From the NCBI RefSeq assembly GCF_000813965.1, contig NZ_JWLI01000011.1:186001-250000 (forward strand): a DNA stretch of 64,000 nt. Direction: 5' to 3'. Shown in pieces: positions 9,088-57,910 of this stretch. Within the stretch, counting starts at the first letter, position 1. The number at the start of each line of letters is the position of its first letter. The notes below the pieces were generated by a model that saw nothing but the letters and a program-made list of their open reading frames with translations, had not been told where the DNA came from and searched no databases. A program made the translations under genes and the position numbers. This DNA comes from Leisingera sp. ANG-M7. GTDB taxonomy: Bacteria; Pseudomonadota; Alphaproteobacteria; Rhodobacterales; Rhodobacteraceae.

Positions 9088-9201
9088 GGATACCTCATGC
9101 TAGGCGTTCGTGCTTTGTTTGAAACCAAAGCGATCAGACCTTATGTAGGTGACGGGCGGGAGCAAGTCTACCGCCCGGACGTATGATCGCAAGGAAACCC
9201 C

Positions 9202-9702: not shown

Positions 9703-9758
9703 GCTGCCTGAACCAAGCTGTTAAGCACTGTCCAAAGCATATTTTCAGGAGTATCCCG

Positions 9759-10247: not shown

Positions 10248-10266
10248 GCAATTTTAGTTGAGACCA

Positions 10267-10298
10267 GAAAACGCCGCTGACAGTCAGCGGCGTTTTTT
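10267..10298 (+). terminator. Intrinsic terminator after secB
   Basis: A perfect stem ACGCCGCTGA/TCAGCGGCGT with a 3-base loop, extended by an A run before and a T run after. It sits between the convergent secB and dnaQ genes and may stop transcription from both sides. Confidence 0.92.
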
Positions 10299-10317
10299 AT
10301 TTCTGCTGCCGGCTGGC

Positions 10318-11046
10318 CTAAGCCGACTTCCACAGGGCATCATCACCCATCTTGCCGATAAACGCCTCATGCGCTTCCAGTTCCTCAGCCGTGATCCGCG
10401 GTGGCAGCGATGATTGCCGGGGGGCAGGGCGCCAGTCGTCCTCTGCTTTCGCAGTGGCGGAAGAGCTGGCTTGCGTGGAAAGACCAAAATCCGGCTGCCG
10501 GCCGCCAATCAGCTCCAGGTAGACATCTGCAAGAATTTCCGAGTCGAGAAGTGCCCCGTGCAGCGTCCGGTTGGAATTGTCGATGCTGAAACGTCGGCAC
10601 AGCGCATCCAGAGTCGCCGGCGAACCCGGAAACCGCTGGCGCGCCATTGCCAATGTGTCAACCGCCTGATCCATCGGCAGCTTTGGCAGCCCCATCCAGC
10701 CAAGTTCTGCATTCAGGAACTTCATGTCAAAGCTGGCATTGTGAATGACCAGTTTGGAGTCTTTCACAAAATCCAGAAATTTCTGACCAACCTTGGAAAA
10801 AACCGGCTTGTCTCGCAGCGTGACCGCGCCAGGTTCAGGTTTCTGCGGCGGCTCCAGCAGGTCCGGACCGATGCCATGGACCGAAAACGCCTCCGCCGGC
10901 ATCGAGCGTTCCGGGTTGATGTAAACGTGAAACGTTTCCCCGGTCGGCATGTGATTGAACAGCTCCACCGCGCCTATCTCAACAATCCGGTCCCCCGAGA
11001 ACGGATCAAACCCGGTGGTTTCGGTATCGAGAACGATTTCACGCAT
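10318..11046 (-). CDS. dnaQ: DNA polymerase III epsilon subunit (proofreading exonuclease)
   Basis: A 242-residue 3'-5' exonuclease of the DnaQ DEDDh family, the proofreading subunit of the replicase. ExoI is DTETTGFDP (residues 5-13), ExoII is HNASFDMKFLNAEL, and ExoIII is LHGALLDSEILADVYLEL. The C-terminal tail (residues about 180-242) would bind the polymerase alpha subunit. The frame begins upstream, but ATG 11046 gives MREIVLDTETTG. It overlaps coaE by 8 bp and is the last gene of the maf-aroE-coaE-dnaQ operon running leftward from the origin. Confidence 0.96.
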   Translation of the reverse strand: MREIVLDTETTGFDPFSGDRIVEIGAVELFNHMPTGETFHVYINPERSMPAEAFSVHGIGPDLLEPPQKPEPGAVTLRDKPVFSKVGQKFLDFVKDSKLVIHNASFDMKFLNAELGWMGLPKLPMDQAVDTLAMARQRFPGSPATLDALCRRFSIDNSNRTLHGALLDSEILADVYLELIGGRQPDFGLSTQASSSATAKAEDDWRPAPRQSSLPPRITAEELEAHEAFIGKMGDDALWKSA

Positions 11047-11632
11047 GGCCCAGCTTGCTCCTGATTTCTGAGAGGATTTCCACAACTTGAGCGGCAGCGT
11101 GCTCGAGCGTGTCTGTCTCGATCACATAATCAGCGCGGGCCATCTTTTCCTCAATCGGCATCTGTTTCTGCAGAATATGCCGGAATTGCTCAACCGTCAT
11201 CGTGCCCCGGGCAAGAACCCGCTCTTGCTGGGTCTGTGAATCCACAGTCACGCAAGCCACCGCATCCATTTCCGCATTGCCACCGGTCTCAAACAGAAGG
11301 GGGATGTCGAACACCAGTATGTCGCTTTGCGCCGCTGCCCGGAACGCCGCCCGATCCTGCGCGACTAGCGGATGCACAATGGCCTCAATACGCGTCAGCG
11401 CTTCGGGCTCGCTGCCGATAATCCGCTTCAGAGCGGTTCGGCTGACCTCGCCCTTCTCCACAGCTTCTGGAAAGGCAGCCTGCATAGGCTTAACGGCAGC
11501 GCCTCCGTTGCCATAAAGCCGGTGAACCGCTGCATCCGCGTCCCAAACCGCACAACCCTGTGCCGCGAACAGCTGGGCCGTGGTGCTTTTTCCCATGCCG
11601 ATGGAGCCAGTGAGGCCAAGGCAGAAACTCAT
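11039..11632 (-). CDS. coaE: Dephospho-CoA kinase
   Basis: A 197-residue cytoplasmic kinase that catalyses the last step of coenzyme A synthesis. The P-loop is GLTGSIGMGKST (residues 6-17), followed by VWDADAAVHRLYG with the substrate-binding DAD, and VFDIPLLFETGG, the typical core. It overlaps aroE upstream by 4 bp and dnaQ downstream by 8 bp, so the operon is tightly coupled. Confidence 0.96.
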   Translation of the reverse strand: MSFCLGLTGSIGMGKSTTAQLFAAQGCAVWDADAAVHRLYGNGGAAVKPMQAAFPEAVEKGEVSRTALKRIIGSEPEALTRIEAIVHPLVAQDRAAFRAAAQSDILVFDIPLLFETGGNAEMDAVACVTVDSQTQQERVLARGTMTVEQFRHILQKQMPIEEKMARADYVIETDTLEHAAAQVVEILSEIRSKLGHA

Positions 11633-12462
11633 TCGAGCACCGCATCCCGCGTGGCAGCGTCAACCTCAGGACGGTGGCCGAACCAGCGCTCAAACCCCGG
11701 CACCGCCTGGTGCAGAAGCATGCCTAGTCCGTCGACCACGGTGCAACCCGCGTCCTCTGCCGTTTGCAAGAGATCAGTTTTCAGAGGCGAGTAGATAAGG
11801 TCAGTCACAACCGCAATAGCTTGCAAGCCATCAAACGGCACCCGAAGACGCGGCTTGCCCACCATGCCAAGCGAGGTGGTATTCACGATCAGCGCGCCTT
11901 CTTCAATGATATTGCCTGCCTGAAGCCACTCCACCACTTTTATTCGGTTTCCGAAATCCTTCTGCAGCTTGTCTGCACGGTCCCGGGTGCGGTTGCTTAG
12001 CAGGATTTCCGGAACGCCTGCTTCCATCAAGGACGCAACAACCGCCCGGCAAGCACCGCCAGCCCCCAATACAACCGCAGGTCCGGATTGAGGATTCCAA
12101 TCCGGCGCCCCCTTATGCAGGTTCGTAATGAACCCGTAACCATCTGTGTTGTCTGCCATGATGGTGCCGTCAGAGCGGAAAGTCAGCGTATTGGCTGCAC
12201 CGATCAGCCGAGCCCGGTCCGTCACCTTGTCGGCGATCGCCATCACCGCTTCCTTGTGCGGGATGGTGACATTTGCCCCGACAAACCCCATTTTCGGCAT
12301 AACCCGAAGGGTTTCGGCAAGGTCTTCCGGCTCTACATGTATGGGAACGTAGTGACCGGAGATACCATGCGCCTTCAGCCAGTGACCGTGGAGTTGAGGC
12401 GACTTGGAATGCGCCACCGGACTGCCGATCACGCCGGCAAGCGGGATTCTTGCGTCTGTCAT
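11629..12462 (-). CDS. aroE: Shikimate dehydrogenase
   Basis: A 277-residue NADPH-dependent enzyme that reduces 3-dehydroshikimate in the shikimate pathway. HSKSPQLHGHWL contributes the substrate serine, NVTIPHKE the catalytic lysine, ANTDGYGF the aspartate, and VVLGAGGACRAVVASL the nucleotide-binding loop. Length and motifs are normal. The gene overlaps maf and coaE by 4 bp each. Confidence 0.96.
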   Translation of the reverse strand: MTDARIPLAGVIGSPVAHSKSPQLHGHWLKAHGISGHYVPIHVEPEDLAETLRVMPKMGFVGANVTIPHKEAVMAIADKVTDRARLIGAANTLTFRSDGTIMADNTDGYGFITNLHKGAPDWNPQSGPAVVLGAGGACRAVVASLMEAGVPEILLSNRTRDRADKLQKDFGNRIKVVEWLQAGNIIEEGALIVNTTSLGMVGKPRLRVPFDGLQAIAVVTDLIYSPLKTDLLQTAEDAGCTVVDGLGMLLHQAVPGFERWFGHRPEVDAATRDAVLE

Positions 12463-13058: not shown

Positions 13059-13468
13059 GTGGAAAACCCCGTGGGAAAGACGCTGATCGTTTCAGGACGT
13101 TTTGTATGGTTTTCCGCGGTTAAGTAAAGACTCCAGGGGTTGACGCAAATCTCAGGATTCTGCCGGCTGAGTCGTCCTTTGTGAGTCAGGATAACTTTGA
13201 GATCGTGGATATGCCGGCTCTCCCCGGTTCATCCCGCTGTTATCCCCAAGGCAAGAAAGGTAAACTGATCCTTAACTGGCCATATTTTATAGGCGTTAAG
13301 GAATTTTCCACGAATCCTGTCCCAACCACGCTGGAATCTTATCCCTGCTGGGGATAAGCGGAGGAAGATTCACTTATCCACTGGAATCCACGCACACTAC
13401 AAAAACATCATCCTTCTAATATTTCTTTAATTATTAGGGTGGTCCAATCAAACCGGGGAGAACTGACC
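13056..13468. other. oriC: Probable chromosomal replication origin (oriC)
   Basis: A gene-free stretch between divergent maf and hemJ. DnaA-box-like nonamers, each with at most two mismatches to TTATCCACA or its TTWTNCACA form: TTTTCCACA (minus, 13058-13066), TTATCCCCA (13240), TTTTCCACG (13304), TTATCCCTG (13339), TTATCCCCA (minus, 13349-13357) and TTATCCACT (13374). Eight GANTC sites lie at 13129, 13156, 13169, 13183, 13312, 13334, 13367 and 13384. An AT-rich tract at about 13400-13438 could serve as the unwinding element. Flanking genes point away, and parAB-parS lies 3-7 kb to the right. The maf-side location matches known alphaproteobacterial origins. Inference, without skew analysis. 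Confidence 0.8.
13338..13358. repeat. Perfect inverted repeat of DnaA-box cores
   Basis: CTTATCCC (13338-13345) and GGGATAAG (13351-13358) form a perfect 8-bp inverted repeat around five bases. Each arm is a TTATCC DnaA-box core, so two DnaA molecules could bind head to head. The sequence CTGGAATC occurs directly before it (13331) and again at 13381, both times carrying a GANTC site. Confidence 0.7.
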
Positions 13469-13924
13469 ATGGACCTGACCGATCTGATGTTCACACTCTA
13501 CCCATATGCAAAATCCCTGCACATCATGGCAGTGCTGAGCTGGATGGCCGGTCTCTTCTATCTCCCCCGTCTGTTTGTGTATCACGTAGAACAAGCAGAG
13601 AAGGTGCAGGACGCAGTGCCCATTTTCCTTACCATGGAAGAAAAGCTTCTCCGGATCATCATGCGGCCTGCAATGTATGTGTCCTGGGCTGCTGGCCTGT
13701 TCATTGTTCTGACACCGGGCATTGTCGACTGGAGCTATCTGTGGCCCTGGATCAAGGGAGTATCCGTGATCGGCATGAGCTGGTTCCATCACTGGCTTCT
13801 GTTTCGCTACCGTGATTTCAAAGAAGGCCGGAACACCCTGACCGGACGGCAATTCAGGCTGATGAATGAGGTGCCAACAGTTCTGATGATGGTGATTGTG
13901 ATCTCGGTGATCTTCAAATTTTAA
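13469..13924 (+). CDS. hemJ: Protoporphyrinogen IX oxidase HemJ
   Basis: A 151-residue membrane protein with four hydrophobic helices, the heme-synthesis protoporphyrinogen oxidase used by most alphaproteobacteria in place of HemG or HemY. The family signature AKSLHIMAVLSWMAGLFYLPRLFVYH holds the conserved histidines, and ISVIFKF closes the protein. The ATG at 13469 follows GGGGAG at 13455-13460; the earlier GTG at 13439 lacks a ribosome site. It is the first gene to the right of the probable origin, so its promoter must lie in or overlap origin sequence. Confidence 0.93.
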   Translation: MDLTDLMFTLYPYAKSLHIMAVLSWMAGLFYLPRLFVYHVEQAEKVQDAVPIFLTMEEKLLRIIMRPAMYVSWAAGLFIVLTPGIVDWSYLWPWIKGVSVIGMSWFHHWLLFRYRDFKEGRNTLTGRQFRLMNEVPTVLMMVIVISVIFKF

Positions 13925-13976
13925 CGCAGCGGCGCTGAGGCGCGGGCTGTGGCCGCGAAACGTTTGCAGCCGGCGT

Positions 13977-14005
13977 TTGACTTATCTGAAGCGAGTCCCT
14001 ATGTA
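13977..14005 (+). promoter_or_regulatory. Probable promoter of rho, with an internal GANTC site
   Basis: TTGACT (13977-13982), 17 bases, then TATGTA (14000-14005). The spacer contains GAGTC at 13993-13997, a CcrM methylation target. It would give a leader of about 85 bases before rho. The -10 is imperfect. Confidence 0.45.
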
Positions 14006-14097
14006 TGGCTCTCAGCGGGCCCGTCCGGGCAGCCGTGTTTTCCAATCCTGTCGTGTGACCGACCCCCGGGTGAGCGGGGAGTAGAGGCCGTATCTAT

Positions 14098-15369
14098 ATG
14101 ACCGTGCAATCCCTGAATCTGTCCGATCTCAAGGCTAAGAGCCCCAAAGCGCTGCTGGCGATGGCCGAGGAGCTGGAGATCGAAAACGCCTCGACCATGC
14201 GCAAGGGCGAGATGATGTTCCAGATCCTGCGGGAACGCGCGGATGAAGGCTGGGACATTGGCGGCGACGGCGTGCTGGAAGTGCTTCAGGACGGCTTTGG
14301 ATTCCTTCGCTCGCCTGAGGCGAACTACCTTCCGGGTCCGGACGATATCTATGTCTCACCCGACATGATCCGGCAGTACTCGCTGCGCACTGGTGACACT
14401 GTCGAGGGGCAGATCAAGGCGCCGCTGGAGACGGAGCGCTACTTTGCGCTGACCAATGTCACCATGATCAACTTCGAAGAGCCCGAGAAGGCCCGCCACA
14501 AGATCGCTTTTGACAACCTGACCCCGCTTTACCCCGATGAGCGCCTGAAGATGGAGATCGAAGATCCCACCATCAAGGACCGCTCCGCCCGGGTGATCGA
14601 TCTGGTTGCACCCATCGGCAAGGGCCAGCGTTCGCTGATCGTGGCGCCGCCCCGGACCGGCAAAACGGTGATCCTGCAAAACATCGCGCACTCCATCGAA
14701 AAGAACCATCCTGAGTGCTATCTGATCGTTCTTCTGATCGACGAACGCCCTGAAGAAGTGACAGACATGCAGCGCTCTGTGAAAGGCGAGGTTGTGTCCT
14801 CCACCTTTGATGAGCCCGCGACCCGCCATGTTGCAGTCTCCGAAATGGTTATTGAAAAGGCTAAGCGCCTTGTTGAGCATAAGCGAGATGTTGTGATTCT
14901 TTTGGATTCTATCACAAGACTTGGTAGGGCCTTCAACACCGTCGTGCCGTCCTCGGGCAAGGTTTTGACTGGTGGTGTTGATGCAAACGCCCTGCAGCGG
15001 CCGAAACGCTTCTTTGGTGCGGCCCGGAACATCGAAGAAGGCGGCTCGTTGACCATCATCGCCACCGCGCTGATCGACACAGGCTCGCGCATGGATGAGG
15101 TGATCTTTGAGGAATTCAAAGGCACCGGTAACTCGGAGATCGTGCTGGACCGCAAGATTGCCGACAAACGCGTGTTCCCGGCGATCGACATCCTCAAATC
15201 AGGCACCCGGAAAGAGGATCTGCTGGTCGACAAGGGAGATCTGGCCAAGACCTTTGTTCTGCGCAGGATCCTGAACCCGATGGGCACAACCGACGCTATT
15301 GAGTTCCTGCTGTCCAAACTGAAGCAGACCAAGTCAAACTCCGAGTTCTTCGACTCGATGAACACCTGA
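14098..15369 (+). CDS. rho: Transcription termination factor Rho
   Basis: A 423-residue hexameric RNA helicase, the usual length. An N-terminal Rho domain ([23 protein letters not shown]) is followed by the RNA-binding cold-shock fold with [32 protein letters not shown]. The ATPase domain has Walker A APPRTGKT and Walker [15 protein letters not shown], and the Q-loop/R-loop region [29 protein letters not shown] is intact. The 173-base leader before it may allow autoregulation, which is known for rho in other bacteria but not shown here. mnmE follows after 30 bases. Confidence 0.97.
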
Positions 15370-15399
15370 CCAAGGCCGGGAAGCGAGAAAGGCCACCCC

Positions 15400-16686
15400 A
15401 TGGACACGATCTTTGCGCTGGCCTCTGCCCAAGGGAAGGCCGGGGTCGCGGTGATCCGCGTCTCCGGTCCGTTGGCGCTTGAAGCCGGCGCGCAGCTCTG
15501 CGGCGGCGACTTGCCGACGCGACGCGCCAGCCTGCGTGTATTGCGGGACGAATCAGGGGAACGGCTGGATGAAGCGCTGGTGCTGACTTTTTCCGCGCCC
15601 AAGAGCTTCACAGCTGAAAATACCGTTGAATTTCAAACACATGGAAGCACTGCAGTAATTACTGCGGTGCTTGAGTCGCTTGGGCGAATCAATGGTTTGA
15701 GAATGGCCGAACCCGGTGAGTTTACCCGTCGGGCACTGGAAAACGGCAATCTGGACTTGGCTCAGGTTGAAGGCTTGGCAGATTTGATCGACGCGGAAAC
15801 CGAAGCGCAGCGCAAACAAGCGCAAGTGATCTTGGCTGGTGGATTGGGCGAACTGGCCGAAAAATGGCGCGCAAACCTGATCCGCGCTGCGTCACTGATT
15901 GAAGTCACAATCGATTTTGCCGACGAAGAAGTGCCGGTTGATGTCACGCCCGAGGTTGCTGCGTTGCTGGCGGGTGTCCAGGTCGGCTTGGAGCAGGAGA
16001 CCGCCGGAGTCAAAATTGCTGAACGGATCCGCAGCGGTTTTGAGGTGGCCATCATCGGTGCGCCGAACGTTGGGAAGTCTACACTGCTGAATGCGCTTGC
16101 CGGCCGCGAAGCGGCGATCACGTCCGAATATGCTGGCACCACCCGTGATATTATCGAAGTCCGTATGGATCTTGCCGGCTTTCCGGTTACCCTGCTGGAC
16201 ACCGCCGGCCTGCGCGATACTGAAGACCATGTTGAAGGTATTGGCATTGCCTTGGCACGCAAGCGGGCGGAAGATGCGGACCTTCGCGTTTTCCTGGCTG
16301 ACGATCATGAGATCCTTGATGTTGAAATGCGGGCCGGCGACATTCGTCTGCGCCCAAAGGCCGATCTAAGGGATGACGCAGGCGATGCAATTTCCGGCCG
16401 ATCCGGGCAGGGGATAGACCGTCTTGTCGGACATGTTTCGGAAGTTCTGCGCAACCGATCAGCACAGGCTGGGATTGCGACCCGTGCTCGGCACCGGGAT
16501 GCGATGCTATCAGCCCTTGTATCGCTTAAAGAAGCCCAGGATACCCTGCAGCGAGGTCCTGAGTTTTATGATATAGCTGCTGAGGAAATGCGGTCTTCTA
16601 TCCGGGCATTGGAAATGCTTGTTGGCCGGATCGGGGTTGAAGATCTCTTGGATGAGATTTTCTCCAGTTTTTGTCTGGGAAAGTGA
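15400..16686 (+). CDS. mnmE: tRNA modification GTPase MnmE
   Basis: A 428-residue GTPase that works with MnmG to install the carboxymethylaminomethyl group on wobble uridine 34 of tRNA. The N-terminal folate-binding domain has [14 protein letters not shown] and [29 protein letters not shown]. The G domain has GAPNVGKST (G1), TTRDIIE (G2) and [10 protein letters not shown] (G3). The C-terminal catalytic cysteine is present in FCLGK, a conservative variant of FCIGK. Length and order are normal. It stops 13 bases before the mnmG start. Confidence 0.97.
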
Positions 16687-44604: not shown

Positions 44605-44697
44605 CGCCTGAGACCTTGCCCCGTGCGACGTGGGAGCCTTGGGCGGCCCGCTGTCTTCATCTGTATTCCGATATGCTCGAACCTCTGGAGCACCCGC

Positions 44698-46536
44698 ATG
44701 TTTCGCTTTTTCGAAAACCTTATTGACCCTTATTGCGCCTACCCGGAAACCAACACTCCGCCGACGCGGCTGTGGCCCTTCCTGCGCGAGTATTCCAAAC
44801 CTTTCAAAAAGATCTTTGTGCTGACCGCGCTGATGTCGGTGATTGTCGCAGCGATTGAAGTCGGTTTGATTTACTACATGGGTCGGGTGGTGGACATCAT
44901 GTCCGGCACACCTGAGCAGGTCTGGGAGGACTACGGGATCGAACTGATTCTGGTCGCCCTGTTCATCTTGCTGCTGCGGCCGCTGATCCAGTTTTTGGAT
45001 GTTGTGCTTCTGAACAACGCCATTCTGCCAAATTATGGAACCTTGATCCGCTGGAGAGCGCACAAGCATGTGCTGCGACAGTCTGTGGGATGGTTCGAGA
45101 ACGATTTTGCCGGCCGGATTGCCAACCGGATCATGCAGACACCACCAGCTGCGGGAGAGGTGATCTTTCAGGTTTTTGACGCGATCACATTTTCACTGGC
45201 CTACCTGGTAGGCGCGGCGGTGTTGCTGTGGGTTGCAGACATTCGGCTGATGCTCCCGCTGGCAGTGTGGTTTATGCTGTATGCGATGCTGGTGATGTGG
45301 ACCGTCAAAAGGGTCGGGCCGGCCAGCCAAGCATCGTCTGATGCGCGTTCTACAGTGACAGGGCGGGTGGTTGACAGCTATTCCAACATTCACTCGGTCA
45401 AGATGTTTGCCCACCATGACCGGGAGTTGACCTATGCCAAGGATGCGATCGAAAACACCCGTAAGACGTTCCAGACGGAGATGCGAATCTTCACAGTCAT
45501 GGATGCCACACTGGTCACGCTGAATGGGCTTTTGATTGTTGGTGTGGTGGGTTGGGCGGTGATGCTGTGGATGCAAGGCTCCGCCTCGGTAGGGCTGGTC
45601 GCCGCAGCGACCGCCCTGACCTTGCGTTTGAATGCAATGACCGGCTGGATCATGTGGGCGCTGACGTCCTTCTTCCGGCAGCTGGGTGTTGTCGCCGAGG
45701 GGATGGAGACCATTGCCCAGCCGATTGACCTGGTGGATGCGGCCAATGCGGAACCTTTGCAGTTGACGAAGGGAGAAATCGAACTGCGCAGTCTGTCGCA
45801 CCACTACGGACGCGAAGGCGGCGGGCTGGACAAGATCAGCCTGACCATCCGGCCCGGTGAAAAAATCGGTTTGATCGGGCGCTCGGGTGCTGGCAAGTCG
45901 ACATTGGTGAAATTGCTCTTGAGGTTCTATGACGCTGAGCGCGGACAGATCCTGATCGATGGTCAGGATATCCGTTGTGTCACTCAGGATAGCTTGCGCA
46001 GCCGTATTGGTATGGTGCAGCAAGATAGTGCGCTGATGCACCGGTCGGTACGGGACAACCTGCTGTATGGACGTCCTGACGCGAGTGAGGATCAGATGAT
46101 TGCGGCGGCCAAGCAGGCGCAGGCGCATGAATTCATTCTGGATCTGGAGGATCCGCAGGGGCGCCAGGGGTATGACGCCCATGTAGGGGAGCGCGGCGTG
46201 AAACTTTCAGGCGGGCAGCGCCAGCGAGTGACCTTGGCGCGGGTGATCTTGAAGGACGCGCCTATCCTGGTTCTGGATGAAGCGACATCTGCGCTGGATT
46301 CCGAAGTTGAGGCGGCCATCCAGGAGACCCTCTACGGCATGATGCAAGGCAAGACGGTGATCGCCATTGCACATAGGCTGTCCACCATCGCGCAGATGGA
46401 CCGTATCTTGGTGATGGATCAGGGCCGTATAGTTGAAGAGGGAACGCATGAAGCGCTATTGCAGGCACAAGGGCTTTATGCGCAGCTCTGGGCGCGCCAG
46501 TCTGGCGGCTTCCTGAATATCGAGGCAGCAGAATGA
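44698..46536 (+). CDS. ABC exporter half-transporter A
   Basis: A 612-residue fused membrane and ATPase subunit of the type IV (ABCB/MsbA-like) exporter family. The membrane domain (about 30-330) has six hydrophobic helices. The ATPase has GRSGAGKST (Walker A), Q-loop MVQQDSALMHRS, signature LSGGQRQRV, Walker B ILVLDEATSALDSE and the switch histidine AHRLST. All residues of both half-sites look catalytic. CTGGAG before ATG 44698 sets the start. It overlaps the second half-transporter by 4 bp, so a heterodimer is likely. Substrate unknown. Confidence 0.9.
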   Translation: MFRFFENLIDPYCAYPETNTPPTRLWPFLREYSKPFKKIFVLTALMSVIVAAIEVGLIYYMGRVVDIMSGTPEQVWEDYGIELILVALFILLLRPLIQFLDVVLLNNAILPNYGTLIRWRAHKHVLRQSVGWFENDFAGRIANRIMQTPPAAGEVIFQVFDAITFSLAYLVGAAVLLWVADIRLMLPLAVWFMLYAMLVMWTVKRVGPASQASSDARSTVTGRVVDSYSNIHSVKMFAHHDRELTYAKDAIENTRKTFQTEMRIFTVMDATLVTLNGLLIVGVVGWAVMLWMQGSASVGLVAAATALTLRLNAMTGWIMWALTSFFRQLGVVAEGMETIAQPIDLVDAANAEPLQLTKGEIELRSLSHHYGREGGGLDKISLTIRPGEKIGLIGRSGAGKSTLVKLLLRFYDAERGQILIDGQDIRCVTQDSLRSRIGMVQQDSALMHRSVRDNLLYGRPDASEDQMIAAAKQAQAHEFILDLEDPQGRQGYDAHVGERGVKLSGGQRQRVTLARVILKDAPILVLDEATSALDSEVEAAIQETLYGMMQGKTVIAIAHRLSTIAQMDRILVMDQGRIVEEGTHEALLQAQGLYAQLWARQSGGFLNIEAAE

Positions 46537-48380
46537 ACATTGGCAACCTGATCGATGCTTTCCGCCCCGCCGACGGGCCGCCGCCGCTCAGGCTGGGGGC
46601 CTTCCTGCGCTGGTGCCTGTCAGGCGCTTGGCCGATGCTGTTTCTGGCTGCTGGGTTTTCGGCACTGGCCGGCGGAATGGAGGCTGGAACGGCCTTTATC
46701 CTGGGTATGGTTATCGACACGGCAATTGCCAGCGGGCCGCAGCAGTTTTTCTCCGCCGGGAATGTTGCCGTTATTACCTTGGCTCTGGGCTTCTTCCTGT
46801 TTGTGCGCCCGGTGCTGTTTGGCCTGTCGGCTGCATCCAACGCAATCATTGTGCAACCGAATGTGAACCCTTTGGTTCTATCGCGTCTGAACCGATGGAC
46901 ACTTGGACAGTCTGTGCGGTTCTTTGACGATGATTTTGTTGGACGTATCGCTCAGAAGCAGATGCAGACAGCAACTGCTGTCACATCGGTCGCGACAGAA
47001 ATGATCAATGTAGTTGCTTTTGCGCTGGCTTCTCTGGCCGGGTCTTTGGCCTTGCTAGGCTCTATTGACTGGCGCGTCACAGGTGTGTTTCTGGCTTGGC
47101 TTGTCGCCTATTTTGCGCTGATCCGCTGGTTCTTGCCGCGCATCCGCAAACGGTCCGGCGCACGGGCCGGGGCGCGGGCGATGGTCACCGGCCAAGTCGT
47201 CGACTCGATCACCAACATCAAAACGGTGAAGCTGTTTGCCCATGCTGACCATGAGGAGCGTACCGCCCAGGATGCTATGGTGCGTTTTCGCGATAAGTCA
47301 CTGCATTTCGGCTACCTCTCCGCCAGCTTCCGTTTCTCTCTGATGTGCCTGGCGGGTGTTTTGCCAGTGCTGCTGATCGGCGCGACGCTGTTTCTTTGGC
47401 AGTCAGGGACAGCAACGGAAGGTGACATCGTAGCCGCCGGTGCGGTTTCGATCCGCATCGCCCAGATGACAGGCTGGGTCAGTTTCACACTGATGGCGAT
47501 TTACTCCAACGTTGGTGAAATCGAAAACGGCATGAAGACCTTATCTGTCCGTGACAGGGTGGAAGACGTGCCAGGTGCAAAACCGCTGGTGGTCGGCGAC
47601 GGTGGAATTGTCTTTGATCAGGTGGAGTTCGCCTACGGACGCGATGTCGGCGGGGTACAGGGGATCGACCTGACCATTTACCCAGGCGAAAAGCTGGGTA
47701 TTGTCGGCGCCTCTGGAGCGGGAAAGTCGACGCTCGTTTCGCTCTTACTCAGGCTCTATGATGAAGAAAAAGGCCGCATATTGATTGATGGGCAGGAGAT
47801 TTCTGCGGTCACACAGAATTCTTTGCGCAGCCAGATCGGCATGGTCACGCAGGAGACTGCCATGTTCAATCGGTCTGCGCGGGACAACATCCTGTACGGC
47901 CGGCCGGACGCCTCAGAGGCCGATATGATTGCCGCGGCCAGGAAAGCTGAGGCGCATGAGTTCATCACTGAACTGGAAGACGGCCAGGGGCGCACAGGCT
48001 ATGATGCACACCTTGGCGAACGTGGTGTGAAACTTTCTGGTGGACAGCGTCAGCGGATAGCCTTGGCCCGTGCGATTCTGAAGGATGCACCAATTCTGGT
48101 ACTGGATGAGGCGACCTCGGCACTGGATTCTGAGGTTGAAGCATCGATCCAGGCTGCATTGCACCGAGTGATGGAAGGCAAAACGGTTCTCGCCATTGCG
48201 CACCGTCTTTCGACGCTGAGCGAAATGGACCGGATTGTCGTGATGGAGAAAGGCAGGATCGCAGAAGCCGGCAGCCATCAGGAGCTGCTGGCGAAAGGCG
48301 GTCTGTATGCTTCCTTCTGGGCGCGTCAATCCGGCGGCTTTATCTGCACGGATGATGAACAAACAGCTGCAGCTGAGTAA
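46533..48380 (+). CDS. ABC exporter half-transporter B
   Basis: A 615-residue homologue of the preceding gene with the same layout. The membrane domain covers about 35-330. The ATPase has GASGAGKST, MVTQETAMFNRS, LSGGQRQRI, LVLDEATSALDSE and AHRLST. The two ATPase halves share long near-identical stretches, for example ERGVKLSGGQRQR and ILVLDEATSALDSEVEA, indicating tandem duplication. An ATGA overlap couples it to subunit A. Both halves keep consensus glutamates, unlike many heterodimeric exporters with one degenerate site. Cargo cannot be inferred. Confidence 0.9.
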   Translation: MNIGNLIDAFRPADGPPPLRLGAFLRWCLSGAWPMLFLAAGFSALAGGMEAGTAFILGMVIDTAIASGPQQFFSAGNVAVITLALGFFLFVRPVLFGLSAASNAIIVQPNVNPLVLSRLNRWTLGQSVRFFDDDFVGRIAQKQMQTATAVTSVATEMINVVAFALASLAGSLALLGSIDWRVTGVFLAWLVAYFALIRWFLPRIRKRSGARAGARAMVTGQVVDSITNIKTVKLFAHADHEERTAQDAMVRFRDKSLHFGYLSASFRFSLMCLAGVLPVLLIGATLFLWQSGTATEGDIVAAGAVSIRIAQMTGWVSFTLMAIYSNVGEIENGMKTLSVRDRVEDVPGAKPLVVGDGGIVFDQVEFAYGRDVGGVQGIDLTIYPGEKLGIVGASGAGKSTLVSLLLRLYDEEKGRILIDGQEISAVTQNSLRSQIGMVTQETAMFNRSARDNILYGRPDASEADMIAAARKAEAHEFITELEDGQGRTGYDAHLGERGVKLSGGQRQRIALARAILKDAPILVLDEATSALDSEVEASIQAALHRVMEGKTVLAIAHRLSTLSEMDRIVVMEKGRIAEAGSHQELLAKGGLYASFWARQSGGFICTDDEQTAAAE

Positions 48381-49683: not shown

Positions 49684-50493
49684 ATGACGGATATTCAAGT
49701 GATGACACCGACCCGCCGCATGGAAGCCATTCTGGATAGCAGCCGTTTTGGCCGCTTCATCACTGCCGTTATATTGATCAATGCGGTTACCTTGGGCCTT
49801 GAGACGTCCCCGTCCGTGATGGCTAAGTTGGGCGGGCTTATCCACTTGATCGACAAAATCTGCTTGTCGATCTTCGTTGTTGAGATCCTGGCCAAGCTGC
49901 TGGTGCGGCGGCTGCGGTTTTTTCTGAGCGGTTGGAACGTTTTTGATTTTGTGATTGTTGGCATCGCTCTTGCACCCGGTACGCAGGGCCTGTCGGTCCT
50001 TCGAGCGCTGCGGATCCTGCGGGTGTTGCGGGTAATCTCTGTTGCACCGCGGCTGCGCCGGGTCGTCGAGGGATTTATCACCGCACTGCCCGGGATGGGC
50101 TCGGTGTTTCTGCTGATGGCGATTATCTTTTACATCGGCTCTGTTATCTCAACAAAGCTGTTCGGTCAGGATTTTCCGGAATGGTTCGGAAATCTCGGCC
50201 TCAGCGCCTATTCGTTGTTCCAGATCATGACACTGGAAAGCTGGTCGATGGGAATCGTGCGTCCGGTGATGGAAGTTCATCCGCATGCTTGGGCATTCTT
50301 TGTGCCGTTCATCATGGTCACGACATTTGCAGTGGTGAACCTTCTGGTCGGCCTGATTGTGAACTCGATGCAGGACGCCCACGGTGAAGAAGAAGGTGAG
50401 CGCACAGATGCTTACCGGGATGAGGTGCTGAGCCGGCTGGAAGCAATTGAGCAAAAGCTATCCAATCAGCCGGTTCAGGACAGGAAATTGTGA
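49684..50493 (+). CDS. Bacterial voltage-gated sodium channel (NaChBac family)
   Basis: A 269-residue single-repeat channel subunit that assembles as a tetramer. S1-S3 cover about 22-105. S4 is SVLRALRILRVLRVISVAPRLRR, with arginines every third residue. The pore has the selectivity filter TLESWSM (residues 183-189), matching TLESWAS of NaChBac, with the glutamate that selects sodium. S6 is FVPFIMVTTFAVVNLLVGLIVNSMQD, and an acidic, coiled-coil C-terminus (EEEGERTDAYRDEVLSRLEAIEQKLS) promotes tetramers. Related channels are known from marine roseobacters. It may couple sodium entry to motility or pH control. Confidence 0.93.
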   Translation: MTDIQVMTPTRRMEAILDSSRFGRFITAVILINAVTLGLETSPSVMAKLGGLIHLIDKICLSIFVVEILAKLLVRRLRFFLSGWNVFDFVIVGIALAPGTQGLSVLRALRILRVLRVISVAPRLRRVVEGFITALPGMGSVFLLMAIIFYIGSVISTKLFGQDFPEWFGNLGLSAYSLFQIMTLESWSMGIVRPVMEVHPHAWAFFVPFIMVTTFAVVNLLVGLIVNSMQDAHGEEEGERTDAYRDEVLSRLEAIEQKLSNQPVQDRKL

Positions 50494-50559: not shown

Positions 50560-51087
50560 ATGAACAGAAGGGCATTTGGCATTAGTGCGGCCGTGAGCCT
50601 TGCGCTGGCCGGTTGCAGCACCACCGGCAGCACAGTAAGCAGGTTCAAATCTTACGATGGTCCGCAGGTCACTTCGATCGTGATCAATAAAGGCGCGCGT
50701 AAGCTGTACCTGATGCACAACGATGAAATCTTGCGAGAATACAAGGTGGATCTGGGATTTGCCCCGCTCGGACCCAAACGGTTTGAGGGTGATGGCAAAA
50801 CACCTGAAGGCACTTATTTGATCAATCGGCGCAATCCGAACAGCCGTTACCATCTGTCGGTAGGCATTTCGTATCCAAACAATCAGGATCGCGCCCTTGC
50901 GCAGGCCAACGGTAAGCGGCCAGGCGGGGAAATCTTCATCCACGGTCAGCCAAACAACCCCAAGGAGCGCAAGCGCGCAGCCCGGGTTGATGACTGGACA
51001 GCCGGCTGTATCGCTGTCACCAACGAGGAAATCGAAGAGATTTATGCGATGGTGCAGGACGGCACAACTATCGCACTGCGGCCCTGA
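50560..51087 (+). CDS. L,D-transpeptidase lipoprotein
   Basis: A 175-residue YkuD-domain protein with a lipoprotein signal (ISAAVSLALAGC, lipid cysteine Cys19). The catalytic region is EIFIHGQPN, with the histidine, and DWTAGCIAVTNEEIEEIYAMV, with the cysteine in T-x-G-C where many relatives have S-x-G-C. Such enzymes form 3-3 cross-links in peptidoglycan or attach proteins to it. TGGGACA before the ATG is a weak ribosome site. A strong terminator follows. Confidence 0.9.
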   Translation: MNRRAFGISAAVSLALAGCSTTGSTVSRFKSYDGPQVTSIVINKGARKLYLMHNDEILREYKVDLGFAPLGPKRFEGDGKTPEGTYLINRRNPNSRYHLSVGISYPNNQDRALAQANGKRPGGEIFIHGQPNNPKERKRAARVDDWTAGCIAVTNEEIEEIYAMVQDGTTIALRP

Positions 51088-51658: not shown

Positions 51659-51828
51659 AATGCTCTCTCGCTCTATCAGTCGCTGATGCATTTATCCTTC
51701 CTGTGGCAGCTGTGCAAACGGGCCGGCAAAATTATGCAGACTTGGCCGCCGGATTGATTTGCGACTGCGGCTTTCCGGCCATAAAATGCTGCAATCTAGG
51801 ATACTGAAAGCGCAAGTTGGAAGATGTG

Positions 51829-52446
51829 ATGTCCCGAAAACCATTTGAAATCTTCAGCCGGAGGCGGTTCCTTGCCGGAAGTGCTGCCTTGATCTCCTCT
51901 TCGGCGCTGGCGCAAGAGGACCCTGATAACGTTGAGCAGGCTTATGATCCCTTGCGGCCGCCGCCAGAGCCGGAACCGCCGGTACAGCGTAACATTTCTG
52001 CTTTCCGGGCAAAATCCTGGCGGCCATATTTCGACAATTTGCGCAGTGGAGCGATTCTAGTCGATATCGACAGTCGGGCGCTGCACTACTGGTCCGCGGA
52101 CGAAAACACTTACAAGCTGTTCCCGTCATCGGTTCCGCTTTCAGACGATCTGACACGCCGCGGCCGCACCCAGGTTGTGCGCAAGGTGGAGGGACCAAGC
52201 TGGGCGCCAACACCCAATATGCGGAAGCGAAACCCGGAATGGCCTGCCTATATTCCGCCGGGCCCGGATAATCCGCTGGGTACCCATGCGCTGTACCTGG
52301 GGTGGAAGTATTACCGGATCCACGGAACCCACGATACGCGCAAGATAGGACGCAAGTCGTCGAACGGTTGCATCGGGCTTTACAATGAGCATATAGCCGA
52401 GCTGTTCAGCCTGGCAAAAGTCGGCACCCAGGTGTTGCTTATTTGA
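51829..52446 (+). CDS. Tat-exported L,D-transpeptidase
   Basis: A 206-residue YkuD-domain enzyme. The N-terminus carries a twin-arginine motif, SRRRFLAGSAALISSSALA, so it is probably exported folded by Tat. The catalytic part is YYRIHGTHDTRKIGRKSSNGCIGLYNEHIAELF, with the S-x-G-C cysteine and the preceding histidines. A proline-rich stretch (residues 40-50) links signal and domain. GGAAG precedes ATG 51829; a TTG 12 bases earlier also opens the frame. This is the second such enzyme within 1.3 kb. Confidence 0.9.
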   Translation: MSRKPFEIFSRRRFLAGSAALISSSALAQEDPDNVEQAYDPLRPPPEPEPPVQRNISAFRAKSWRPYFDNLRSGAILVDIDSRALHYWSADENTYKLFPSSVPLSDDLTRRGRTQVVRKVEGPSWAPTPNMRKRNPEWPAYIPPGPDNPLGTHALYLGWKYYRIHGTHDTRKIGRKSSNGCIGLYNEHIAELFSLAKVGTQVLLI

Positions 52447-52845: not shown

Positions 52846-55800
52846 TCAGGCCGCCTCCACCTCCTGCAGAATGCTATCCAAGGTTTTGACGATCATGTCA
52901 GTGTCGCTAGACTCTATGGTCAGTGGCGGCCGAATTTTCAGGATATTGTCCTTGGAGCCTTCGCTTCCAATCAGGATCCGGTAATCCCGCATCCGGTTTT
53001 TGACATAGGAACAGATCTCTGTGGCTTGGGAGCCGTCCGGGTTGATCAGCTCTAGCCCAAGGAACAGCCCCATACCGCGGACGTCGCCGACGCAGGCATA
53101 TTTCTGTTCCAGAGTTTTCAGGCCTTCAATCAGTTGCTCGCCCAGTAAACGGGCGTTTTCCTGCAGGCCCTCGTCATCCACGATATCCAGAACCTCTTTT
53201 CCAATCCGGCAAGAGAGTGTCGAGCCGCCGAAGGTGGAAAAGAACTCAATCCCGTTGTCGAAGCTTTCTGCAATTGCCTTGGTCGTCACAAGAACGCCTA
53301 ACGGATGGCCGTTGCCGATTGGCTTGCCCAGAACGACAATGTCCGGCAGGGCGCCTTGATGCTCGAAACCGAAATAGCAGTCGCCAAGCCGCCCCAGTCC
53401 GGTCTGCACTTCATCTGCAATGCAGACACCGCCCGCATTGCGGATTTTTTCATAAACCGTGGGCAAATACCCTTTGGGCGGAATGATTTGCCCGCCAACT
53501 GACGGAAAGGTTTCCGCGATGAAACCGGCCACACCGTGACCCTTTTCCTGAAGGCGATCGACCGCTGCGTCTACAAGGCCTGCGTATTTTTGTGCCCGGT
53601 CCGGATCATCTCGGCGGAAAGAGCCGCGGTAATCATCGGCAACTTCAATTAGCTCCACCCAGTCAGCCTGCCCGATCCCGCCGGGTTTGTTGAATTTGTA
53701 GGCAGAGATGCTGATCGCACCGGTGGTGTTGCCGTGATAGCCGTGATCTGGCGTCACCATGCCTTTGGCGCCGGTGTGCGCCCGCGCGAGGCGCAAGGCC
53801 AGTTCGTTTGCCTCTGTCCCCGAGTTGACAAAGAAGCAGACCTCGAAATGATCGGGCATCTTGGACAGTACTTTGTCGGCAAAGGCGGTTTGTGCCGGAT
53901 GCAGGTAACGGGTGTTGGAGTTCATCCGTTTCAACTGATCCGCAGCAACGGCTTGGATGCGCGGGTGGGCGTGTCCCACATGCGGCACGTTGTTGTAGGC
54001 ATCCAGATACGGCCGCCCCCATTCGTCAAACAGGTGGTGCTTCCAGCCGCGCACCAGCATCACCGGGTCGGTGTAAGTCAGGCTCAGGTTGCCACCGAAA
54101 TGCGCGCGGCGTCCTGCCAAAACGCTGTCCTTGCTGGTCGGCTTATAAAGGACCTTCTCTTTCGGCAGATTGAGCAACGCCGCAGGGTTAGGGCACAGTG
54201 CGCGCCATAGATACATCTCGTCCGGATCGCCGACGCCAGGCCAGTCGGCTTCAATCCCATCGGTGGTCAGCGCCAGCTGGAAATGAACATGCGGTGCCCA
54301 TCCGCCATTTTGGCTGGCATCTCCAAGACGGCAGAATTCTTCTCCCTTTTCGACAGTATCACCCGGTTTCAAGCGGTCCAGAAACTCAGGATCCAGATGG
54401 CCGTATAAAGTGAAGAAGGAATCGCCCCCGGGTGTTTCATGACGCAGGATGATCACCCCGCCGTAGTCCAGATGCCCGCTACGGTATTCAGCGACAACCA
54501 CTTCACCTCGCAGCGGTGCAAACATCGCAGTCCCGGCCCGCGCGAAAGCATCGACTGCCAGATGAACCGTGCGTCTGTTGCTGGCTTTCCATGGCCCCCT
54601 GCTGAAGGCTGCATCCGTGTAAATCAGCCTGGGCTCATGGTAATAGCCCAGCCAGATCCGGCCGCGGTCTTCGAACTCGGCGCCGACCTGGGCTGCCTCT
54701 TCCTGAGGCATGTGGAAGGGATTCTGCGGCCAAGTTGATTGTTCCACCGACAGCGATCCCATCGGAGCTTCTGCCAGGTCTTCTCCCAAGAGGGGGGCGA
54801 AATTGCCGCGTTCCTGTTCAATCCATGCCATGATTCGGTCTGCTCCATCGACCACGGGCAAGCCGCAGGCCGCGCGCAGCCGGGCATTCAGCAACCCGCC
54901 ATGCAGCGCATTGCCCTCAAGGAACCGCCAGGCTGGCGCTTGTGAGACTGTTACATAGGGATCGTCCGGATTCTCCGCGGCCATGAGTGTGGAGTTCACC
55001 ACACTCACTGCAAGCCGCATCCGCAGAAGCGGCCAGACCATGTCCAATTCGACGGCGGTCAGCGGGCAGGCCTCATGATACCCTGTAACCAGCGATGCAA
55101 GGGCTGCTTCCGGTGCCGGGTGATCCAGAACGATGTAGGCTGCGGCAATTGCTAGATCGCAAACGCGAGGTGCCGCGCACATGTCGCCTAGGTCGATCAG
55201 CCCGGATACATGCCGAGGTGCGTTCAATTCACCAGCCACCATGATGTTGTAATCATTCGCATCGTTGTGGATGGCTTGTTTGGGGAGCTTCGCCAATACA
55301 GGCTCTAACTTGGCAAACTCCGTAGAAATGTCGTCCAGGATGGCGAGGCGCTCTGGGGGTGTGATGCATGAAAGCTCTTCAGTGATCCATCCCGCCCGCA
55401 TAAGGTCCCATTTGAAATCGCGTTCAAGACCTTCGTGGCGGAAGTCTGCCAGCGCCTTGGCCGCACCGCCCAAGACCCTGCCGACCTCTTGGATCAGCGC
55501 ATCGCTTTTCGGCTCTGCTTTGGCATAACAACGCCCCGGCAATTGGTTCAGGAGCCAAACCAGCCGGTACTGGCCGCTTTCATCCGGCAGGGTCAGAAGT
55601 GACTGTCCGGATGGCGATGCAATGACCCGCGGGCAGGGCAGGTCAGGCTGGCGTTCCGCGATATGCTCGAAGGCCTTCACTTGCATGTCGACCAGCCATT
55701 CGTCGCAACCGGGACGCATAGCTTTCAGGATATAACCTTGGCCGTTCTGTCCTTTGGCCAGGAAATTCAGGTCGTACTCGCCGTCCAGGCGGGTCAGTTC

Positions 55801-55854
55801 CGCCTCAATGCCCCAATGCTCCCGAAGGGCTTTGGTCCAGTGCGCAAGCGTCAT
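52846..55854 (-). CDS. Three-domain fusion: APH-type kinase, M23 peptidase, class III aminotransferase
   Basis: A 1002-residue protein. Residues about 1-330 are an aminoglycoside-phosphotransferase-like kinase: IHNDANDYN holds His196 and Asp198, and GLIDLGD the metal aspartate. Residues about 400-550 are an M23 (LytM) metallopeptidase-like domain with all signature positions: HLAVD (His431, Asp435), LYGHLD (His486) and HVHF (His522, His524). Residues about 570-1002 are a class III PLP enzyme with Lys844 in LGKPIGNGHP. Kinase and PLP domains match the hydroxylysine kinase and phospholyase families (AGPHD1 and AGXT2L), suggesting phosphorylation of an amino alcohol followed by phosphate elimination. 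No signal peptide is visible, so the protein should be cytoplasmic. Substrate is inferred only. Confidence 0.9.
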   Translation of the reverse strand: MTLAHWTKALREHWGIEAELTRLDGEYDLNFLAKGQNGQGYILKAMRPGCDEWLVDMQVKAFEHIAERQPDLPCPRVIASPSGQSLLTLPDESGQYRLVWLLNQLPGRCYAKAEPKSDALIQEVGRVLGGAAKALADFRHEGLERDFKWDLMRAGWITEELSCITPPERLAILDDISTEFAKLEPVLAKLPKQAIHNDANDYNIMVAGELNAPRHVSGLIDLGDMCAAPRVCDLAIAAAYIVLDHPAPEAALASLVTGYHEACPLTAVELDMVWPLLRMRLAVSVVNSTLMAAENPDDPYVTVSQAPAWRFLEGNALHGGLLNARLRAACGLPVVDGADRIMAWIEQERGNFAPLLGEDLAEAPMGSLSVEQSTWPQNPFHMPQEEAAQVGAEFEDRGRIWLGYYHEPRLIYTDAAFSRGPWKASNRRTVHLAVDAFARAGTAMFAPLRGEVVVAEYRSGHLDYGGVIILRHETPGGDSFFTLYGHLDPEFLDRLKPGDTVEKGEEFCRLGDASQNGGWAPHVHFQLALTTDGIEADWPGVGDPDEMYLWRALCPNPAALLNLPKEKVLYKPTSKDSVLAGRRAHFGGNLSLTYTDPVMLVRGWKHHLFDEWGRPYLDAYNNVPHVGHAHPRIQAVAADQLKRMNSNTRYLHPAQTAFADKVLSKMPDHFEVCFFVNSGTEANELALRLARAHTGAKGMVTPDHGYHGNTTGAISISAYKFNKPGGIGQADWVELIEVADDYRGSFRRDDPDRAQKYAGLVDAAVDRLQEKGHGVAGFIAETFPSVGGQIIPPKGYLPTVYEKIRNAGGVCIADEVQTGLGRLGDCYFGFEHQGALPDIVVLGKPIGNGHPLGVLVTTKAIAESFDNGIEFFSTFGGSTLSCRIGKEVLDIVDDEGLQENARLLGEQLIEGLKTLEQKYACVGDVRGMGLFLGLELINPDGSQATEICSYVKNRMRDYRILIGSEGSKDNILKIRPPLTIESSDTDMIVKTLDSILQEVEAA

Positions 55855-55924: not shown

Positions 55925-56986
55925 TTAGTCCAGCCAGCCTTTCAGGTTTTCCCCGATGACACCGGCTAGTGCCGCTACGTGATCGTCATCGTCATTGAGG
56001 CACGGAATATAGAGGAAGTCTTCGCCGCCGGCGTGCTCAAAGCTCTCGCGGATCTCTTCGTTGATCTCTTCGAGAGTTTCGATGCAGTCGGCGGAGAAAG
56101 CCGGCGCAATCACCGCGATGTTCTTCTTTCCTTCCTTGGCCAGTGTGGCGACATGGTCCACCGTATAGGGTTTCAGCCACTCCTCAGGTCCGAAGACCGA
56201 CTGGAAAGTGGTGGTGATCCGGGTGTCGTCCCATCCCAGCCGCTCCTTCAGCAACCGAGTCGTTTTCTGGCACTGGCAGTGATACGGGTCCCCCTGCATC
56301 AGATACCGCATTGGCATTCCGTGATAGGAAACCACCAGAATATCCGGGCGTTTCTCTGCTTTAGAATAGGCTTCTTCTACAGAGCGTGCCAAGGCGTCGA
56401 TATAGGCGGGTTGATCGAAATAAGGTGCGATTGTGCGCGCGGCAGGCTGCCAAGGCTCCTCCATTAGTGCACGGAAAAACTGGTCGTTTGCGGTGCCCGA
56501 TGTTGCGCCTGCGTACTGCGGATAGAGCGGGACAAACAGGATCTTCTGGCAGCCTGCTTCAACCATCTGCCGGACCTTGGACTTGGTGGAGGGGTTGCCG
56601 TAGCGCATGCAAAAATCGACCATAACCTGATCGCCGTAACGCGCCTTCATCACCTCTGCTATCTTGGTGGTCTGTTCCTTGGTAATGGTCATTAGCGGGC
56701 TTTCGCCCTTGTCGTGATTCCAGATCGATTTGTAGGCGGCTCCTGAAGAGAACGGGCGTTTCGTCAGGATGATCAGTTGCAAAAGCGGCTGCCATTTCCA
56801 GGACGGATAGTCGATGACCCGCTTGTCGGAGAGGAACTCACTCAGATACCGGCGCATCGGCCAGTAGGAATAGTCATCCGGGGTGCCGAGGTTGGCCAGC
56901 AGGATGCCGACCTTTTCCGCTGGGATCTTAGGATGATCGGCTGGGGCGTGGGCAGGGCATTGGGCGGTCCGGGCGGCGTCCAGCAT
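55925..56986 (-). CDS. hemH: Ferrochelatase
   Basis: A 353-residue enzyme that inserts iron into protoporphyrin IX, the last step of heme synthesis. GILLANLGTPD opens the conserved part. ILVVSYHGMPMRYLMQGDPYHCQCQKTT holds the catalytic histidine, FQSVFGPEEWLKPYT is the lip region and APAFSADCIETLEEI contains the catalytic glutamate. A 20-residue extension precedes the core. It sits 70 bases upstream of the fusion gene on the same strand. hemJ and hemW are also in the window, but far away. Confidence 0.96.
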   Translation of the reverse strand: MLDAARTAQCPAHAPADHPKIPAEKVGILLANLGTPDDYSYWPMRRYLSEFLSDKRVIDYPSWKWQPLLQLIILTKRPFSSGAAYKSIWNHDKGESPLMTITKEQTTKIAEVMKARYGDQVMVDFCMRYGNPSTKSKVRQMVEAGCQKILFVPLYPQYAGATSGTANDQFFRALMEEPWQPAARTIAPYFDQPAYIDALARSVEEAYSKAEKRPDILVVSYHGMPMRYLMQGDPYHCQCQKTTRLLKERLGWDDTRITTTFQSVFGPEEWLKPYTVDHVATLAKEGKKNIAVIAPAFSADCIETLEEINEEIRESFEHAGGEDFLYIPCLNDDDDHVAALAGVIGENLKGWLD

Positions 56987-57094: not shown

Positions 57095-57910
57095 TCACAG
57101 CTTTGATTCGGGCACCTTGAGCGCGTCGGCCAAACGCATCTGAGCTGAACCAGGGCGCAACGGCTTCTGCTGGCTGTCCGATGGCGACCAGCCAGTCAGA
57201 CAGACCAGTTCGAACGTCGCGGGCAAGCGGCCCTTGGTGTTGGCGAAATGCTCCCGGTAGATGTGATCGGCCAAATGAAAGAGACCGCGCGGCGCCGGGC
57301 GTCTCAGGCGCTGGGCAAGAGCGTTGGTTTCACCCATGCCTCGCAGGTCATGGATCAGGTGGGTCAGGTCGCGGTACTCGGCAGTAAGAGGTACAAGGTC
57401 AGCAACCGGCAGGGCAAAGCCTGCACGTTGCAGCAGACCGCCCAGATCACGGATTTCCCCCATCGGCGCTATGCGCGGTGACAGGCCGCCCAACACAATA
57501 GTCTCGGCTTCGGCCATGGCAGCGCGCAGTTCGTGCAGGGTCTGGCCGCCCAGCAGGATGACCAGCAGCAGCCCGTCCTCCTTCAAGGCGCGGCGGCATT
57601 GGATCAATTGTCCGACCGGATCGTTCGCCCAGTGCAGGCACATGGCGTGGATCACCACATCGTGCGCGCCGGCTTCCAAATCCAGCATATCCTCATCCGC
57701 GACGACTTTCGCCTCAGGTTCAAACCCCTCCCAGACCTCGGGAAATGGGCAGACAACAGCGGGGGCTGTAAAGGTTCTGTTAACCAAACTCAGGCGATCC
57801 TCAGCCTCGTCCCGTGCCATGTGGTGCAGGAACAGTGCATCCTGTTTCCGACGTGAACGATGGGTTTCAAGGGCGCGGCGGTCGAAAAGCTGCATGGGTG
57901 CTTGTGTCAT
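57095..57910 (-). CDS. NDUFAF5/BioC-like methyltransferase-fold protein lacking SAM motif I
   Basis: A 271-residue protein of the methyltransferase family related to BioC and to complex I assembly factor NDUFAF5. The N-terminal LFDRRALETHRSRRKQDALFLHHMARDEAEDRL and the later VVIHAMCLHWANDPVGQLIQCRRALKEDGLLLVILLGG are characteristic. The glycine-rich SAM motif normally found between them is replaced by PAVVCPFPEVWEGFEPEAK, with no G-x-G. It may be a non-methylating member; human NDUFAF5 acts as a hydroxylase. It is divergent from comF with only 13 bases between start codons. Confidence 0.8.
   Translation of the reverse strand: MTQAPMQLFDRRALETHRSRRKQDALFLHHMARDEAEDRLSLVNRTFTAPAVVCPFPEVWEGFEPEAKVVADEDMLDLEAGAHDVVIHAMCLHWANDPVGQLIQCRRALKEDGLLLVILLGGQTLHELRAAMAEAETIVLGGLSPRIAPMGEIRDLGGLLQRAGFALPVADLVPLTAEYRDLTHLIHDLRGMGETNALAQRLRRPAPRGLFHLADHIYREHFANTKGRLPATFELVCLTGWSPSDSQQKPLRPGSAQMRLADALKVPESKL

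Follow-up and report, generated by a model that had tools for sequence, protein, structure and literature searches.

This report concerns a single gene in a stretch of DNA of 64,000 nucleotides (the window) from Leisingera sp. ANG-M7, contig NZ_JWLI01000011.1, positions 186,001 to 250,000. The gene encodes a fusion protein in which an APH-type kinase, a peptidase domain of family M23, and a class III enzyme dependent on pyridoxal 5'-phosphate (PLP) are joined on one chain (Table 1). The frame runs from ATG to TGA on the minus strand with no internal stops. An initial annotation of this DNA had placed these three domains on one chain and had named the key residues of the latter two, and both statements are borne out. 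All domains score above their Pfam cut-offs (APH, 79.9 bits versus 23.2; Peptidase_M23, 48.2 versus 28.7; Aminotran_3, 223.9 versus 30.5), and in the alignment His431, Asp435, His486, His522, His524, and Lys844 stand at the positions named. A frame-error artefact is ruled out by the single open frame and by the 120 full-length relatives listed. An AlphaFold2 model of all 1002 residues, with a mean predicted local distance difference test score (pLDDT) of 93.3 and a predicted template modelling score of 0.92, supports a defined arrangement of the kinase, M23, and PLP domains in the whole chain. Because full-length relatives exist and the model is confident, the three-domain fusion is far beyond chance.

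Table 1. Features of the fusion gene and its neighbours, in window positions.
Feature	Position	Strand	Basis or relation
Three-domain protein, 1002 aa (NCBIfam NF004799, PRK06148)	52846..55854	minus	open frame, profile match
APH-type kinase domain, residues 22-260; conserved Asp198 and Asp221	55075..55791	minus	Pfam, alignment
Peptidase_M23 domain, residues 430-528; HxxxD (431, 435), His486, HxH (522, 524)	54271..54567	minus	Pfam, alignment
NGGWxPHxH family motif, residues 516-524	54283..54309	minus	alignment
Class III PLP phospholyase domain, residues 600-996; Lys844	52867..54057	minus	Pfam, fold search, tree
Ferrochelatase hemH	55925..56986	minus	70 bp upstream of fusion gene
BioC-like methyltransferase, score under the model's cut-off	57095..57910	minus	next gene upstream, after hemH
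YkuD L,D-transpeptidase-domain genes, two	50560-51087 and 51817-52446		opposite strand to fusion gene

Family Membership and Distribution

By its profile score, the kinase-M23-phospholyase fusion is a member of an already named and widespread family, PRK06148 (NF004799), to which residues 2-1001 match with 1526.7 bits against a cut-off of 1128. This membership rules out a new architecture; the protein is an ordinary member that shows no difference of substance. Members of the family carry names such as "hypothetical protein" or "aminotransferase class III-fold PLP-dependent enzyme". No description of the M23-phospholyase combination was found in the open-licence literature, and kinases and aminotransferases have no occurrences in the accessible part of the main text of an M23 review (PMC9662197).

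A protein search with the fusion returned 7867 proteins at E ≤ 0.001 among 7997 scored candidates. Each of the 120 relatives listed has all three Pfam domains, and the closest named relatives among the matches listed are Leisingera proteins with identities of 85-90%. The best 80 fusion loci from a scan of genome contigs belong, by their titles, to Pseudomonadota, Bacteroidota, Chloroflexota, Acidobacteriota, Gemmatimonadota, Planctomycetota, Desulfobacter-type bacteria, and one Thorarchaeota metagenome-assembled genome (MAG); taxon labels of MAGs are possibly wrong, e.g., that of locus L079. In samples drawn around the Leisingera genome, the full three-domain protein is present in 8 of 299 genomes at the level of the phylum and in 10 of 289 at that of the class, and a fusion-length protein, judged from frame lengths, in 29 of 295 at that of the family. 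Two fusion genes, one from a single-cell genome and the other from a MAG, have broken frames (L076, 3065-6136; L128, 5893-9018).

The M23 Domain

The M23 domain passes the gathering score of PF01551 and carries the HxxxD, H, and HxH residues of this peptidase family. The five residues read HDHHH in 120 of the 120 close relatives listed. Across the best 80 loci and the fusion protein (81 rows, eight of them shorter than 950 residues), His431, Asp435, His522, His524, and also Asn516 occur in every row and His486 in 80. In a 67-row alignment, 17 of 166 M23 positions are invariant, all five catalytic residues included; the median identity to the fusion protein in this alignment is 0.40 for M23, 0.33 for APH, and 0.48 for PLP. 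The site is near-invariant in both alignments and is thus under strong selection. These residues rule out an inactive M23 domain as a general feature of the PRK06148 subfamily, and the domain is probably catalytically active. Judging from the alignment, the NGGWxPHxH loop is a mark of the family.

The initial annotation had seen a puzzle in an intact M23 domain within a protein without a signal peptide, and the puzzle stands. By Kyte-Doolittle hydropathy alone, a hydrophobic segment was not found in residues 1-60 (best 12-residue mean -0.03). The domain resembles the LytM/lysostaphin-type peptidases in its Pfam score and its HxxxD, H, and HxH residues but differs from them in having no evident leader, in its metabolic-enzyme partners, and in the NGGWxPHxH loop. 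Among solved M23 sequences there is a single weak match, 9m7n (E 9.5e-05).

Stand-alone relatives of the domain also exist. A profile of the M23 domain found 1726 proteins at E ≤ 0.001 among 5392 candidates. Of the 120 matches listed, 115 contain NGGWxPHxH by a loose pattern and four have a strongly hydrophobic stretch (mean >2.0) in the first 60 residues. Two of those listed, P0242 and P0246, are apparently fragments of fusion genes, and other stand-alone proteins seem to come from complete genes, with about 205, 225, or 285 residues. In a tree of 25 of the 120, stand-alone domains are scattered among fused ones, and the starred branches force at least three changes. One stand-alone gene lies 2 bp from a major facilitator superfamily gene and beside an SBP_bac_5 ATP-binding cassette (ABC) transporter. 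Stand-alone proteins with the motif and no evident leader include P0255, P0282, P0313, P0325, P0336, L195-L200, and L237-L246; those of L243 and L246 lie just downstream of an apparent recR, recognised by eye.

The Kinase and Phospholyase Domains

The kinase domain passes the gathering score of PF01636 and conserves Asp198 (78 of 81 rows; two gaps, one X) and Asp221 (79 of 81; two gaps), whose motifs we take to be the catalytic HxDxxxxN and DxGD of APH enzymes. Used as a query against the sequences of the Protein Data Bank (PDB), the kinase part matched 0 chains at E 0.01.

The PLP domain groups in a tree with ETNPPL, the phosphoethanolamine phospho-lyase (PDB 6tor), apart from other class III enzymes, and it thus belongs to the ETNPPL/PHYKPL group. 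The closest characterised lyases are ETNPPL and the phospholyase A1RDF1. The fold searches, in which the PLP domain fills the match lists, agree with this placement, which the initial annotation had proposed. Phosphate elimination is strongly supported as the predicted type of reaction. Human ETNPPL, a chain of 499 residues without a kinase or M23 domain, falls inside a bacterial fusion clade, though not significantly. The type A rows from which this tree was built up were 34 of 64 loci in list order and five others, 15 partial or near-identical loci having been excluded beforehand; for the final tree five outgroup rows, L143_A, L022_S2, and L074_A were removed and four fusion rows added.

That kinase and lyase belong together, as was also first proposed, is seen where they are split as well as where they are fused. 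At L029, L032, L035, L037, and L052-L056, a set in which some loci are one gene fetched twice, a close kinase gene overlaps or adjoins the lyase gene. In a quick tree these kinases cluster with the fused ones at a starred support of 100 (Shimodaira-Hasegawa-like approximate likelihood ratio test), after removal of 4 of 12 "split_other" rows in which a kinase did not turn up within about 1.5 kb. A coupling of kinase and lyase is very probable. Two-domain M23-PLP proteins without a kinase domain were also observed (L046, 6017-8095; L167), and no kinase of the fusion family was found within about 6 kb of L046. The Leisingera genome itself has a second lyase of 437 aa with 37% identity, which belongs to another lyase clade; its gene forms one run with those of an aldehyde dehydrogenase and an APH kinase that is only distantly related (L038; C13, 5090-8837).

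The same reaction logic is known from hydroxylysine kinase (HYKK/AGPHD1) and 5-phosphohydroxylysine phospholyase (PHYKPL). These are separate vertebrate proteins and are not known to have an M23 domain. Veiga-da-Cunha et al. in 2012 reportedly found the human enzymes using bacterial bi- and trifunctional kinase-lyase proteins, which their abstract is said to mention.

Proposed Mechanism

We propose that the fusion protein is a soluble enzyme of cytosolic catabolism whose single chain carries three active sites, a reading to which we give a probability of about 40%. In the first step, the M23 zinc peptidase would act on a small peptide or amide taken up by the cell and release from it a hydroxylated amino acid; a candidate is a glycine-rich hydroxylysine peptide from collagen, which would suit M23 enzymes in that they favour bonds adjacent to glycine. 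In the second, as fold and motifs suggest, the APH domain would phosphorylate the hydroxyl group, most likely of 5-hydroxy-L-lysine. In the third, the PLP domain would eliminate phosphate and ammonia to give an aldehyde, here 2-aminoadipate 6-semialdehyde, which would cyclise to piperideine-6-carboxylate (P6C) and be oxidised by a P6C dehydrogenase, also encoded in the genome. What the data show are the domains, their conservation, the kinship of the lyase, and the site-less sister form; we infer the peptidase activity, its substrate, the order of the steps, and any channelling between them; the chain of three steps in exactly this form is doubtful.

Hydroxylysine as the substrate falls somewhat short of even odds, and a peptide that delivers it, as the initial annotation had imagined, is plausible. 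At L119, a P6C dehydrogenase gene (776.3 bits, cut-off 730) precedes the fusion on the same strand, 35 bp ahead of its first ATG. The Leisingera genome encodes this dehydrogenase (807 bits) beside a pipecolate-oxidase-like gene that scores under its cut-off. In the class sample, P6C dehydrogenase is present in 7 of 10 fusion genomes versus 59 of 279 others (p 0.0016, uncorrected for genome size and full phylogeny); counted by family, the co-occurrence is 5 of 8 (p 0.015).

Contrary Evidence and Alternative Explanations

A number of observations weigh against this mechanism, first of all where the substrate is concerned. P6C dehydrogenase is missing in three of the 10 fusion genomes (G366, G443, and G492), and by BLAST and window neighbours it lies beside the fusion in only one context among 96 distinct ones (two of 97 are identical; seven are on contigs <8 kb). 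The fusion gene in the window adjoins a plain hemH. Pseudomonas fluorescens is said, in the accessible part of one source, to route 5-hydroxylysine via lysine-pathway enzymes (PMC12930750). The context of L079 consists of a BCCT transporter and a choline sulfatase, and glycine-betaine-type genes lie beside the fusion in Ruegeria TM1040. Such choline and betaine contexts, together with the closeness of the lyase to ETNPPL and A1RDF1, speak for ethanolamine as the substrate: the kinase would form phosphoethanolamine, the lyase would yield acetaldehyde, phosphate, and ammonia, and M23 would trim an ethanolamine amide or be incidental. This explanation is rather unlikely; the P6C dehydrogenase neighbour of L119 and the co-occurrence stand against it, and ethanolamine could be served by the second lyase of the genome with its kinase and aldehyde dehydrogenase.

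Glutamine-synthetase-like genes adjoin two fusions. The neighbour at L073 has gamma-glutamylputrescine synthetase as its best model, at 259.9 bits and far under the cut-off of 650, and that at L067 is annotated as glutamine synthetase family. The M23 domain might then be an amidase for a small molecule, such as the gamma-glutamyl amide of an amino alcohol, instead of a peptidase, and the chain would unblock, phosphorylate, and eliminate one metabolite. The family-specific NGGWxPHxH, with its invariant Asn516, contains the HxH of the site and would suit such an amidase. Nevertheless, these neighbours occur in two members only, no such gene was seen beside stand-alone relatives, whose neighbours mostly lacked annotation, and we know of no M23 enzyme with a substrate of the gamma-glutamyl-amide type, so that this explanation is distinctly unlikely.

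Other contrary points concern the M23 domain itself. In L140, a MAG, the position of His486 is genuinely Arg. Split kinase-lyase pairs have no M23 of the fusion family within about 1.5 to 6 kb on each side, and no kinase or lyase of the fusion family was found in any of 16 stand-alone M23 contexts, some on short contigs. By frame lengths in the family sample, a stand-alone M23 occurs in 10 of 295 genomes and never together with the fusion-length protein. A contrast comes from the sister subfamily PRK06149, whose model (NF004800) the fusion protein matches with 703.4 bits, under the cut-off of 973. Proteins of this type, so labelled by kinship and not by PRK06149 model scores, were found in Pseudomonas, Rhizobiaceae, and Rhodococcus; they have the same domain order with APH and class III PLP and group with the fusions in the PLP tree. 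All seven proteins aligned have a shortened middle domain that lacks the four M23 histidines; Asp435 is kept in four. Of five scanned with Pfam, one shows M23 at E 0.26 and four show no match up to E 1, and the domain is absent from the 120 listed relatives of one member. The loss of M23 residues among homologues, which the initial annotation had held to be fatal to its reading, is thus found in PRK06149 and not in PRK06148. Given this sister form and the split pairs, kinase and lyase can in some cases do without M23. The approximately unbiased test does not reject trees in which ETNPPL lies outside the fusions (p 0.166) or the PRK06149 type outside all others (p 0.167). Four Sinorhizobium records (L063, and by coordinates K101, C101, and M103) carry both fusion types, separated by about 1.2 kb; on S. 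meliloti Ak57 pSymB (L063), the intact-M23 and site-less forms are at 8944-11997 and 13196-16126 in opposite orientation.

The shrunken middle domain of PRK06149, whose model is poor (pLDDT 66.0) and still has confident strands at about 430-510, would suit an M23 domain that binds zinc and serves only to space or regulate the kinase and lyase on either side of it. This is improbable for PRK06148, where the catalytic residues are near-invariant over many phyla and the domain with its motif also exists alone (some of these being gene fragments). Recycling of peptidoglycan fragments in the cytosol, a substrate also suggested by the initial annotation, is a very improbable explanation: M23 enzymes are studied mostly as peptidoglycan hydrolases, according to the accessible part of the review (PMC9662197), but support was not found beyond the two YkuD genes adjoining the fusion gene, which are on the opposite strand and, in the neighbour clustering, recur only in near relatives and in one other alphaproteobacterium (L106, 4.7 kb away), and the fusion is also present in the Thorarchaeota MAG.

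The three-step catabolic enzyme may also be seen as the main form of something larger. An undescribed cytosolic branch of M23, marked by NGGWxPHxH, would release hydroxylysine, or an amino alcohol resembling it, from peptides that the cell takes up; fused to the kinase and phospholyase, it would have its product burned, the stand-alone and dead forms would be steps of gain and loss, and animal ETNPPL would descend from the lyase portion of a fusion of this kind. In its full extent this picture is unlikely. A near-invariant M23 site inside a cytosolic catabolic enzyme across phyla would be a clean and testable exception to the view of these peptidases as cell-wall hydrolases, and its role inside the cell, the unexplained part of a known fusion, is now testable and worth an experiment. 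The contrast of PRK06148 with the site-less PRK06149 offers a natural way to ask what the peptidase adds. If hydroxylysine is the substrate, the fusion would provide bacteria with a means of breaking down an amino acid derived from collagen, in parallel with that of animals.

Genomic Surroundings

The neighbours in the window, hemH and the methyltransferase, provided no clue to the substrate. Nor did a clustering of neighbours over the 97 fusion contexts, in which the recurrent families were mostly Roseobacter synteny, transporter parts, or Lrp regulators. A role in defence was rejected, as PADLOC gave zero matches. The pair of hemH and the fusion gene recurs in the Roseobacter-group relatives L068, L074, and L093. 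Elsewhere in the window lie two tandem genes for MsbA-like ABC exporters (44623-48380), with scores under the cut-offs of the named models, and a single-domain Ion_trans channel of 269 aa (49684-50493).
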